This document shows positions 5,890 to 22,457 of a stretch of DNA of 36,299 bases, piece after piece. The stretch lies in contig PAPS01000011.1 of NCBI GenBank assembly GCA_002708985.1, positions 1 through 36,299 of the forward strand. Direction: 5' to 3'. The stretch's first letter is position 1, and each line of letters starts with the position of its first letter. Below the pieces are notes generated by a model. That model saw only the letters and a program-made list of their open reading frames with translations. It had not been told where the DNA came from and searched no databases. This stretch comes from Saprospirales bacterium (GTDB lineage: Bacteria; Bacteroidota; Bacteroidia; Chitinophagales; UBA8649). The position numbers and the translations under genes are program-made.

Positions 5890-6423
5890 ATGCTACGTGG
5901 TTTAACCTATTCATTTTTTGTCTTAGTCATCGTTCTGACAGTCGTTTTATCGTTTTCAAGCTGTTGCCGAAAAAAAGCTTCAGTCCAAACACAAAACGAG
6001 GAATTCAGGAATTCTCAGATCCAACAAAAGGATTCATCAGAGCATTCATCAAAAGATATCCAAATCAACAGGTGGGATAATCTCTATGCCATAGAAGTAA
6101 TCAATGGCAAGGCTTTAGACAAAGAAGAATATACCGAAGGACGACCAAGACTCGAACTTCAGATTCAACAGGGTCGACTCGTAGGCTTTACCGGTTGCAA
6201 TTCATTTCAAGCCCAGGCAAGACTTACCCAAAATGAGGATGAGGTCGTACATATTGAGATTGGCCCCATTATGTCAACTAAAAAGGGATGCATTGGAGCT
6301 ATTGACGAACAGTACTTTTTTCAAGCGCTAGAATCCTCTTCTTCGCTCTTACTTTCGAACAATCGAATCTTTTTAATCAATGAGGAAGGAGTTATCGCAC
6401 TCCAAGGTTTGATTGTCGATTAG
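5890..6423 (+). CDS. Lipoprotein with META (HslJ-like) domain
   Basis: From ATG 5890 this is a 177-residue protein. Residues 1-24 form a signal peptide ending SFSS before Cys25/Cys26, so it should be lipidated and exported. A Ser/Gln/Lys-rich linker follows. The C-terminal ~100 residues fit the META/HslJ domain: TGCNSF at 101-106, a GPIMSTKKGC strand with a second conserved Cys at 134, and a closing IFLINEEGVIALQGL strand. The family is linked to outer-envelope stress and some drug tolerance, with no known enzymatic activity. The frame extends back to TTG 5836, but that extension overlaps the divergent BCCT gene and would bury the signal peptide. It is divergent from BCCT and its TAG overlaps the UbiA-like gene's stop. 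Confidence 0.75.
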   Translation: MLRGLTYSFFVLVIVLTVVLSFSSCCRKKASVQTQNEEFRNSQIQQKDSSEHSSKDIQINRWDNLYAIEVINGKALDKEEYTEGRPRLELQIQQGRLVGFTGCNSFQAQARLTQNEDEVVHIEIGPIMSTKKGCIGAIDEQYFFQALESSSSLLLSNNRIFLINEEGVIALQGLIVD

Positions 6424-7214
6424 TAAGGCAGAGCCCACTCAATCATTAACCAGGCAATCATCATCCCATCAAGCAAGAAATAGTAATAGAACTCTGGAGT
6501 ACTCTCATGGCATCTTAAAACGAAAACTGTGCATAAGCACGATATGATTACGCCACTAACAATACCAAGATAGATGCTTAGTAGGCCCACTGCCACAAAA
6601 CAGCTTATCGATAGCCTTATTGTATTCCGAATACCCAAACGATGGACGACCGTTTTCATCGTAGGATGCGCCATTCGATCAAAGTTCTGGTCATGAATTT
6701 CAAAAGGTAGGGTTAATCCTATAATAAAAAGAGCCATCACAGCCGATAGTAAAACATCATCCAAAGACCAAGCAAGCATAAAGGGAGCCATAAGAACGAT
6801 AGACCATACAACACCCACAATAATTGTTTTAAGCCAGCCCACTGCACGAAGAAACTGTATGTAAATGCAGACTAAACCAACAGCTATAAACAACACCATT
6901 AGAATAGACAACGGAAGTCTTATTGCCCCGATTACCGCAACACCAAGACCAAGAATCATAAGGGTTTGACTAAACCATTCATGCCTGACCTGCCAGGCTA
7001 CCATTGGATGGGTAGATGCTTCCTCGTCATTGCGCACCCTGTATCGCAGGGCATTATACACAAAACAAGTACCGCCAAAAACAACAAAAGATGCTGTCCA
7101 ACCCGGTGTAAGACCAAGACATTCTCTTATCAGAACATGTAAAGCCAAGGCATTGCATGCAATCCAAATATTTGACTGCCAAAGACTTCTAACCCAGGCC
7201 TTGGCGAAGTCCAT
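6420..7214 (-). CDS. UbiA-like integral membrane protein with degenerate Asp-rich motifs
   Basis: This 264-residue protein has about eight hydrophobic helices. Helix order and two loops resemble the UbiA prenyltransferase superfamily. In place of the first NDxxDxxxD motif it has YNALRYRVRNDEE, keeping Asn54 but losing the usual aspartates. The second-motif position reads EIHDQNFDRMAHPTMKTVVHRLG, with D175 and D179 kept and a UbiA-like ending. UbiA enzymes use both motifs to bind Mg-diphosphate, so normal prenyl transfer is doubtful here. It starts 3 bases after the M42 peptidase stop, so the two are probably co-transcribed. It converges on the META lipoprotein with a 4-base overlap (TTAG). 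Family call is from pattern only. Confidence 0.5.
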   Translation of the reverse strand: MDFAKAWVRSLWQSNIWIACNALALHVLIRECLGLTPGWTASFVVFGGTCFVYNALRYRVRNDEEASTHPMVAWQVRHEWFSQTLMILGLGVAVIGAIRLPLSILMVLFIAVGLVCIYIQFLRAVGWLKTIIVGVVWSIVLMAPFMLAWSLDDVLLSAVMALFIIGLTLPFEIHDQNFDRMAHPTMKTVVHRLGIRNTIRLSISCFVAVGLLSIYLGIVSGVIISCLCTVFVLRCHESTPEFYYYFLLDGMMIAWLMIEWALPY

Positions 7215-7217
7215 ATA

Positions 7218-8306
7218 TTAATTTAGATACTTAAAGTTAAAGTCAGGAGACATTTTCTTTAGGCATTCAGCAAGCAAGGTCACCGCATTATCTAAGTCCT
7301 CAAGAGAAAGCGTTTCCACTGTCGTATGCATATATCGAAGAGGAATCGTGATTAAGGCAGAAGGTACTCCTGAGTTGGAATATGCAAAAGCATCAGTATC
7401 CGTTCCAGTACCTCGAGTCGCCACATCACGCTGGTAAGGAATTTTTTTCTTTTCAGCAGTATCTAGCACAAGATCAAGCATATGATTGTGGACTGCCGGA
7501 GCATAAGTAACAATGGGGCCTTTGCCCATTTTAAAGTCTCCTTCTCGAAACTTATTAATCATAGGTGTATTCGTATCGTGCCCTACGTCAGTAATAAAAG
7601 CACAATCTGGCTTAATTCTATGTGCAATCATCTGTGCGCCACGGAGACCAATCTCTTCTTGCACGCTATTTACAACGTATAGCCCAAAAGGTAACTTTAC
7701 GCCCTCCTCCTTAAGTCGTTTAGCAACGAGGGCAATCAATACACCCCCTACCCGATTATCCATAGCACGGCCAGTTACTACTTTTTCGCTGAGTTGTAAA
7801 AACTCATCTTGGTAGGTAGCAATACATCCAATATGAATGCCTAGTTTTTCGACTTCCTCTCGATTACTGCAGCCCGCATCGATAAATACATTTTCTGCTT
7901 TCGGATATTCTTGCTTAGCTCCTGCTCCGCGTGTGTGAATTGCCGGCCAACCAAATACAGCGGGCACTAAGCCTTTCTTTGTATGCAGTACAACACGCAT
8001 CGACGGAGCGATAATCGGATCCATTCCACCATTGCGTTTAACATAGATAAATCCATTATCAGTGATGTGATGGACTACCCAAGAAATCTCATCCGCATGA
8101 GCCTCTATCACTACTTTGAACTTCTCCTCTGGGTTGACAATACCGACTACCGTCCCATAATCATCGACTTCGTAGGTGTCGATATAATCTTTGACAAAAT
8201 CTAACCACACTTTTTGGCCTTCCGTTTCGTACCCTGTTGGTGAATAGGTATTAATATACTTTTCGAAAAAAGCAAGCTCTTTTTTACCGATGTTCTTATA
8301 CTTCAT
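7218..8306 (-). CDS. M42-family metallo-aminopeptidase
   Basis: This 362-residue cytosolic protein matches M42 (FrvX/TET-like) aminopeptidases in length and motifs. The expected di-metal ligands are present: H70 in EAHADE, D183 in RAMDNR, E218 in VQEEIG, D240 in ITDVGHD and H327 in RYMHTTVE, with E217 as the likely general base. Family members form large tetrahedral complexes that trim peptides, often from Glu/Asp or with broad preference; specificity cannot be read here. Older annotations call such proteins endoglucanase M, which is misleading. It lies 85 bases downstream of the metallophosphoesterase gene and 3 bases ahead of the UbiA-like gene. It has its own well-formed promoter with an embedded palindrome. 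Confidence 0.93.
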   Translation of the reverse strand: MKYKNIGKKELAFFEKYINTYSPTGYETEGQKVWLDFVKDYIDTYEVDDYGTVVGIVNPEEKFKVVIEAHADEISWVVHHITDNGFIYVKRNGGMDPIIAPSMRVVLHTKKGLVPAVFGWPAIHTRGAGAKQEYPKAENVFIDAGCSNREEVEKLGIHIGCIATYQDEFLQLSEKVVTGRAMDNRVGGVLIALVAKRLKEEGVKLPFGLYVVNSVQEEIGLRGAQMIAHRIKPDCAFITDVGHDTNTPMINKFREGDFKMGKGPIVTYAPAVHNHMLDLVLDTAEKKKIPYQRDVATRGTGTDTDAFAYSNSGVPSALITIPLRYMHTTVETLSLEDLDNAVTLLAECLKKMSPDFNFKYLN

Positions 8307-8331
8307 AGTGATTGATTCAATTAAATCCTTG

Positions 8332-8362
8332 TAAATGTAGAATAGTCTCGAGACTACGCCAA
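8332..8362 (-). promoter_or_regulatory. M42 peptidase promoter, TTG-N20-TACATTTA
   Basis: On the minus strand TTG (8362-8360), a 20-base spacer and TACATTTA (8339-8332) match the Bacteroidota promoter with the same spacing as mutS. Unlike mutS, 25 bases separate the element from the ATG at 8306, giving a leader of about 20 bases without a Shine-Dalgarno sequence. Confidence 0.6.
8343..8356. promoter_or_regulatory. Perfect 14-base palindrome in promoter spacer (candidate operator)
   Basis: TAGTCTCGAGACTA is identical to its reverse complement. It lies wholly in the 20-base spacer (8340-8359) between -33 and -7 of the M42 promoter, and the two centres coincide at 8349.5. A dimeric regulator bound here would block RNA polymerase. 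A short terminator for the upstream phosphoesterase is a weaker alternative, since the foldable stem would be about 5 bp with no T-run. Confidence 0.45.
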
Positions 8363-8391
8363 ACCAAATTTAAAAGGCTAATACTTGCTTA

Positions 8392-9618
8392 CTAAACCTT
8401 TTTCCGTAGGATAAGTTGCGTGACTTCAGGTAAAATACCCACACGTCCAGGATATCCTAAAAATCCAAAGCCCCGATTTACATAGAGAAATTGGTCCTTC
8501 ACTTTATAGAGACCAGCCCATTTGGGATAGAAATATTGAGACGGGCTCCAACGTAACCAACGGTTTTCTACTCCAAACTGAGCGCCATGAGTATGGCCCG
8601 ATAACGTTAGCTCAATATCCTTGTGATTTAAAACTTCAGCATCAAAATGACTCGGATCATGGCTGAGTAATATTTTCATCATGTCCTCTTGCAAAGACTC
8701 CTTGGCTTTCTTGATGTCGCCGCGATCAGTGTCATTGGGTTGATCTTCAAATCGACCTATATTTCCCCAATAATGAACACCTAAAAGTGCAAACTGAGCT
8801 TCCGAGGCTTCAATTATCGCGTGCTCATTGAGCAAGAGACGCCACCCAAGTTGCTGATGCGCACGGTAGAGTTTTTCTAGGTTTTCTTGCTTTGCCTTTT
8901 TACTTTCCCAAGGTCGGTAGTCCCCATAATCATGATTTCCAAGAATAGAATACACGCCGTGCTTTGCCCGAAGCTTGCTAAATATGGGAATGTATTCTTC
9001 TACCTCATCTGCTGTATCATTGACTAAATCTCCCGTAAACACAATAAGATCAGCATCTATGGCATTGATTTCATCCACCGCTTCGACCAAGGGCTTTTTC
9101 TTTGTAAAACTCCCCGTATGCAAATCAGAAATATGGATAATGCGAAAGCCATCAAGCTTTTTCGGCCATGAACGAAGAGAGATTTCTGCCTTTCTATATT
9201 GATAGCGATAGGCATTGGAAAGACCGCCCATCATGGTAAGCACTGGAATACCTCCAATGCCCGTGGCCGTTATTGCAAGAAATCGTCTTCGACCTTCAGA
9301 GGGCTGAACATTTCTGCCATGCCTGATGAGATGCCAAATTCTAGCCAGAAGCAATACCATCCCCACCAAACTGTAAAAGATCAAGCTAAGAAACCATATC
9401 CCTCGAATCCAGTTATTGATAATATCTGAAATAATAGTATCAGTAAACAGAATAACAGGAATAATCCAAAGTCCTATTAAAACCAGTGGTGCAAACCATA
9501 CCTTTTTGGCTAGATTGGCTCGTCGTGTAGTGCGAACCCATAAATGGCTTGCTCGTCTACTCGCATAGGCAAGGCAAAATGTAAAGAGAAAAAAGGTTAG
9601 AAGAAATGTGGTGGACAA
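8392..9618 (-). CDS. Membrane-anchored calcineurin-like metallophosphoesterase (YaeI-type)
   Basis: This 408-residue protein has three N-terminal hydrophobic helices (about 3-20, 41-60 and 73-93), then a catalytic domain. Metal-binding motifs are complete and in order: DLHTG at 165-169, GDLVN at 196-200, GNHD at 227-230, LLSHDP and GHTHG. Homologues such as YaeI/YkuE act on lipid-linked phosphates; the substrate here is unknown. Between helices and catalytic domain, residues 109-131 read GRRRFLAITATGIGGIPVLTMM, which resembles a twin-arginine signal core. The start is a TTG at 9618; the first helix begins right after it and no better start is visible. It is divergent from the thioredoxin gene. 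Confidence 0.88.
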   Translation of the reverse strand: MSTTFLLTFFLFTFCLAYASRRASHLWVRTTRRANLAKKVWFAPLVLIGLWIIPVILFTDTIISDIINNWIRGIWFLSLIFYSLVGMVLLLARIWHLIRHGRNVQPSEGRRRFLAITATGIGGIPVLTMMGGLSNAYRYQYRKAEISLRSWPKKLDGFRIIHISDLHTGSFTKKKPLVEAVDEINAIDADLIVFTGDLVNDTADEVEEYIPIFSKLRAKHGVYSILGNHDYGDYRPWESKKAKQENLEKLYRAHQQLGWRLLLNEHAIIEASEAQFALLGVHYWGNIGRFEDQPNDTDRGDIKKAKESLQEDMMKILLSHDPSHFDAEVLNHKDIELTLSGHTHGAQFGVENRWLRWSPSQYFYPKWAGLYKVKDQFLYVNRGFGFLGYPGRVGILPEVTQLILRKKV

Positions 9619-9679: not shown

Positions 9680-9997
9680 ATGGAAGTTTTACGAATAACA
9701 GATAGCGACTTTACACAAACTATTGAATCCAACAAAAAAGTAGTGATAAAGTTTGATGCCTCATGGTGTGGAACATGCCGTCTGATCAGCCCTAAATTCA
9801 AGAAATTAGCGAGTGACGAACGCTTTAAGGAGGTGGCCTTCTTTGAGCTGAATGCAGAGCAGAATCCTGAAGCAAGAAAGTTTGCTGGGGTGAACAACCT
9901 TCCATTCTTTGCGACCATTGAAGGAGGTAATTTAAAGTCCACCACCTTCACAGGTAAGATTGAGCGCGTTGAAGAGCTGATCGCCGACCTCGCTTAA
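9680..9997 (+). CDS. Thioredoxin-family protein
   Basis: This 105-residue cytosolic protein has one thioredoxin fold with the redox centre WCGTC (C30, C33) and the conserved cis-proline region NNLPFFA. Canonical thioredoxin has WCGPC; Thr in place of Pro usually shifts redox potential towards disulfide exchange, but activity here is inference. There is no signal peptide. It begins a rightward run with the DUF6952-like gene 21 bases downstream, a pairing I recall from other Bacteroidota, where a peroxiredoxin may also be nearby; none is visible here. A -7-like TACTTTCG at 9659-9666 lies 13 bases before the ATG. Confidence 0.92.
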   Translation: MEVLRITDSDFTQTIESNKKVVIKFDASWCGTCRLISPKFKKLASDERFKEVAFFELNAEQNPEARKFAGVNNLPFFATIEGGNLKSTTFTGKIERVEELIADLA

Positions 9998-22385: not shown

Positions 22386-22442
22386 AATTACCACGCAAAA
22401 AAAGCGAATTTTTTAAATTCAAGCTTCACAATTCGAAAGCTT

Positions 22443-22450
22443 TACATTTG
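22443..22450 (+). promoter_or_regulatory. -7 element TACATTTG before purB
   Basis: TACATTTG is a perfect TAnnTTTG match and ends 7 bases before the ATG at 22458, so the transcript leader should be at most a few bases. No TTG is found at the usual distance upstream. Confidence 0.45.
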
Positions 22451-22457
22451 TGATACT

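Follow-up and report, generated by a model that had tools for sequence, protein, structure and literature searches.

Does a perfect palindrome centred between the two boxes of a bacterial promoter mark the site of a regulator, or does the spacer of a conserved promoter sometimes happen to be palindromic? The locus that raises this question belongs to an uncultured Bacteroidota (Saprospirales bacterium) and lies on contig C11 of its genome (G000), in a 36-kb stretch of DNA that was analyzed as a whole and is referred to here as the window. The initial annotation of this DNA proposed that a 14-bp palindrome upstream of an M42 peptidase gene is the place where a repressor dimer would block polymerase, and that the peptidase gene and the UbiA-like gene behind it are controlled by a regulator. 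Repression by a dimer bound between the promoter boxes is a textbook mechanism. Our search for literature on repressor control of M42 aminopeptidases returned nothing.

Results

The M42/UbiA-like gene pair

The M42 family aminopeptidase gene occupies positions 7218..8306 on the minus strand (Pfam PF05343, E 2.5e-76), with its ATG beginning at 8306. Its protein product is 99% and 98% identical to the orthologues of two congeners, G001 and G002, respectively. The second gene of the pair (6420..7214, minus strand) has an ORF that starts 3 bases behind the M42 ORF and encodes a UbiA-like membrane protein, whose match to PF01040 (E 1.2e-5) falls under the Pfam curated gathering cut-off. By Pfam search, the upstream neighbor is a metallophosphoesterase gene that is on the same strand as the M42 gene and ends at 8392. 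The intergenic gap 5' of the M42 gene is 85 bp and contains the palindrome. The pairing of M42 and UbiA-like genes recurs at many orthologous loci, where identity of the UbiA-like protein is as low as 22-34%. Across many families of the order, the UbiA-like gene was seen directly or closely behind the M42 gene (L005, L006, L008, L009, L011, L012, L014, L015, L017, L018, L022).

Promoter architecture

Read 5' to 3' on the minus strand, the sequence across the site is ...AAATTTGGTTTGGCG-TAGTCTCGAGACTA-TTCTACATTTACAAGG..., and the promoter takes the form TTTG-N20-TACATTTA, which is of the Bacteroidota -33/-7 type. The -33 element, TTTG (8360..8363, minus strand; within ATTTGGTTTGG), and the -7 element, TACATTTA (8332..8339, minus strand), are invariant in all three congeners. 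The 20-nt spacer between them, GCGTAGTCTCGAGACTATTC (8340..8359, minus strand), has no substitutions in G001 and one, at 8349, in G002. Located approximately 33 nt upstream of the M42 ATG, the -7 box is compatible at 7/8 positions with TAnnTTTG, the flavobacterial sigma-A -7 consensus (PMC9723704). When sampled upstream regions were scanned for TTG before TAnnTTYR, a spacing of 20 gave one of two joint highest counts, albeit in small numbers. For -33/-7 promoters in this phylum, a length of about 20 nt falls in the usual range, so that the spacer would not count as over-long.

Orthologues elsewhere often display a TAnnTT[TC][GA] box at approximately the same distance from the ATG as in the M42 promoter; many have a -7-like box roughly 30-40 nt before the ATG, and in members of the same family it is found at -33 to -41. 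The promoter reading of the initial annotation is upheld by these boxes and by the invariance of the -7 and TTTG elements in the genus. On this comparative evidence the promoter of the M42 gene is real, with a predicted start site near 8326.

Other promoter-associated features were noted in the window. A second small inverted repeat, ATTGA-N-TCAAT (8313-8323), sits within the 5' UTR predicted for the M42 mRNA; it differs at the center in G002, and at the center plus one arm base in G001. In two more promoter regions (948-999 and 22395-22457), -7 boxes of a similar kind (TACATTTA, preceded by TTG-N20, and TACATTTG) are located 12-15 nt before the ATG, which implies very short 5' UTRs. The genome sample contains repeated instances of TAnnTTTG boxes approximately 12 nt ahead of a start codon.

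The palindrome and its chance expectation

The candidate operator, TAGTCTCGAGACTA (8343..8356; no strand assigned), is a perfect 14-bp palindrome. Its sequence, its coordinates and its exact centering in the 20-nt spacer were all correct on recheck, with palindrome and spacer sharing one center to the base (8349|8350). Perfect palindromes of at least 14 bp number 2 in the window versus 2.8 expected under a dinucleotide model, and 30 in a 400-kb sample versus 24 expected; because both counts are near expectation, the palindrome alone is ordinary. In sampled upstream regions, 2 were observed versus 1.65 expected at ≥14 bp, and 5 versus 7.2 at ≥12 bp.

These counts favor coincidence, the reading in which the spacer of a conserved promoter happens to be palindromic and is bound by no protein, to which we assign somewhat less than an even chance. 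The position of the palindrome speaks against it, although the strength of this argument depends on how many promoters are considered. For one random 20-nt spacer of the same composition, the probability of containing a palindrome of ≥14 bp is 9e-4, and that of an exactly centered one is 1.4e-4. Over the 15-20 promoter-bearing gaps of the window, the chance of exact centering rises to an estimated 1-2%, and a spacer palindrome at any position is expected on the order of once per genome (both arithmetic estimates). The palindrome is therefore unusual for a single promoter, but about one chance case, centered or not, is to be expected in a genome whose promoters number many hundreds.

Conservation between congeners

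Comparison within the genus relied on G001 and G002, with DNA identity of approximately 87% across the window; a search among GTDB contigs found no congeners beyond these two. Across 8330-8369, G001 shows no difference, and G002 has a single substitution, at 8349 in the central base pair of positions of the palindrome, yielding TAGTCTCAAGACTA. Both six-base arms are unchanged in either genome, and the palindrome is perfect in G001. Beyond the -33 box, away from the spacer, intergenic bases vary freely among the congeners. The flanks of the palindrome are as invariant in the three genomes as its arms, and other promoters are equally conserved. Among 29 other upstream regions (≥50 bp and alignable to G002), 13 contain a 32-bp stretch with 0-1 mismatches to G002, and several promoter regions within the window show 95-96% identity between congeners. 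Conservation of the palindrome block is thus ordinary for this genome. This agrees with coincidence, under which the palindrome would have persisted in three close relatives simply as part of promoter regions that are conserved as a whole, and so does the fact that it is already imperfect in G002. The location of the sole change is less easily accommodated, as it falls on one of the two positions that matter least in a dyad, an outcome with a chance of about 14% for a change landing anywhere in the 14 bp. Given that whole promoters are retained at ~87% identity, conservation of a spacer palindrome between such congeners is no proof of an operator.

Conserved inverted repeats were also counted in 114 aligned intergenic regions, from which those separating convergent genes had been excluded; mirror repeats and plain-complement repeats served as controls. 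For 6-base arms at a gap of ≤2, there were 8 inverted repeats versus 4 and 5 in the controls, only a slight excess, and for 8-base arms at a gap of ≤6 there were 7 versus 2 and 0. This excess over the controls argues that some conserved dyads are functional, as operators or hairpins. For a conserved dyad of the size seen at M42, it would place function and chance at near even odds.

The change in G002 also bears on a reading at the RNA level. As the palindrome is upstream of the predicted start site, it would not be part of the M42 mRNA itself; a hairpin could terminate, attenuate or mark for processing the transcripts that read through from the metallophosphoesterase gene. The minus-strand transcript can fold into a stem of 6 bp closed by a loop of 4 nt, and it is in the loop that G002 differs. 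However, the site has no U-tract, is not among the terminator-like sites, has no Rfam match, and its folding energy equals that of shuffled sequences (z 0.03 and -0.5). In our view an RNA hairpin is very improbable. Three further candidates were rejected. A TTG-started frame of 16 codons through the site was dismissed as a leader peptide on its sequence: most of it would precede the predicted start, and in G002 a Glu codon becomes Lys. An XhoI-type site (CTCGAG), considered as the conserved feature, is lost in G002, and for a phage-like origin of the palindrome element there was a single insignificant match.

Distribution of the dyad outside the genus

Among 86 M42 loci with enough upstream sequence, congeners included, the dyad occurs in no orthologue outside the genus. 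A search of 299 genomes of the order for the exact palindrome found it in the genome of the window and one congener only, and not in the 297 others. Since the gene pair is found at many loci and the dyad is limited to the genus, the pair is old and the dyad recent. The initial annotation regarded a palindrome missing from orthologous promoters of close relatives that keep both boxes as evidence against its regulator. This pattern is seen in part: in orthologues from the same family a -7-like box, TATCTTCG, stands at -33/-35 and the palindrome is missing, but it is not clear that their -33 box corresponds to the one here. Restriction to the genus is a further point in favor of coincidence.

Searches for a regulon and a regulator

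The palindrome is unique in its own genome at ≤2 mismatches, the absence of a second copy again being in line with coincidence. With the center left free and the same threshold, TAGTCTNNAGACTA had 62, 58 and 58 matches in the three genomes versus 91, 55 and 88 for a reversed-pattern control; as matches did not exceed the control, there is no sign of a regulon. A gapped-arm search for further sites likewise yielded nothing beyond the control. The initial annotation suggested looking for the palindrome before other genes in this genome and its relatives; these searches showed no second good copy in the genome and no enrichment over control. Any regulator would be limited to one or a few sites, because the genome holds no other good match.

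Pfam recognized no transcription-factor domain among the proteins of the 36-kb window. In the genome as a whole, counts for three regulator families gave one MerR_1, two TetR_N and no GntR, and the TAGTCT dyad is absent before the own genes of all three MerR_1 and TetR_N regulators (3/3). The MerR_1 protein is relevant to a reading in which an activator of this family occupies the dyad and, by distorting the DNA, acts on a promoter whose spacer is long. Operators of the MerR family overlap the entire -35/-10 spacer of 19-20 bp (PMC7722741), a geometry that the M42 site matches. The single MerR-like protein (~290 aa) is conserved in the congeners; nevertheless, its gene is on contig C33, whereas the palindrome is on C11. 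A contiguous 14-bp dyad is also short for a MerR operator, and the spacer would be of the length that is usual in the phylum. We consider this reading very improbable.

The MerR and TetR genes were rejected as candidates for the regulator of the M42 site; the motif differs at the one TetR gene whose operator is clear. That gene, on contig C15, serves as a positive control in the same genomes. Directly upstream of it is ACCAAACG-NN-CGTTTGGT, whose arms are invariant in the three genomes and whose center differs in each (GT, AC, AG). This is probably how a true operator looks at this evolutionary distance, and the M42 dyad fits the pattern, with one informative change only. The candidate auto-operator of the TetR gene is at L175 (G000:C15, gene near 9744), with counterparts at L173 and L174.

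Discussion

We propose that a Bacteroidota sigma-A type promoter, TTTG-N20-TACATTTA, would drive the M42/UbiA-like pair, and that in this genus a dimeric regulator may have its operator, with two-fold symmetry, in the spacer. Once bound to the dyad, the regulator would keep RNA polymerase off both promoter boxes. Protein binding, repression, the identity of the regulator and co-transcription of both genes are steps that we infer. That the dyad is a local operator limited to this genus has, in our view, nearly an even chance, which is a weighed judgement and not a computed posterior; set directly against coincidence, the choice would be about a coin-flip. The claim of a regulator retains the exact centering, the intact arms, the confinement of the only change to the center, and the 8 conserved dyads versus 4-5 in controls. 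Other observations are neutral or speak against it, most of them being neutral: the ordinary conservation of the promoter and its spacer, the lack of a palindrome excess, the lack of a second site or regulon, the lack of a recognized regulator gene in the window, and the absence of the dyad outside the genus. The more specific proposal, in which a genus-specific, previously undescribed regulator controls only the M42/UbiA-like pair via a TAGTCT-NN-AGACTA operator, is less likely than not and is put forward tentatively.

Should the dyad function as an operator, it would offer a rare point of access to the regulation of an M42 aminopeptidase operon, here in a lineage of Bacteroidota that is uncultured. 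If a genus-specific regulator does act on it, the site would also provide a handle on the physiological link between the widely paired M42 and UbiA-like genes. The more useful lesson is methodological: congeners at ~87% identity keep their promoters whole, so that a spacer palindrome retained among them is not in itself proof of an operator.

In comparison with known systems, the M42 promoter resembles Bacteroidota sigma-A promoters (-33 TTTG/TTG, -7 TAnnTTTG) in its spacing of 20 and in boxes that are invariant in the genus, but differs in a -7 box that ends in A instead of G and in a spacer with a perfect dyad. As in MerR-family spacer operators (such as those of BmrR and CueR), the dyad is centered in a spacer of ~20 nt, although it is shorter and contiguous, the spacer would be of normal length for the phylum, and no MerR gene is linked. 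Unlike operators of the TetR-family type, the candidate M42 site is single and lineage-restricted, with no linked regulator. It shares with the operators of such dimeric repressors a two-fold symmetric dyad that lies between the promoter boxes, with arms that stay constant while the center changes.
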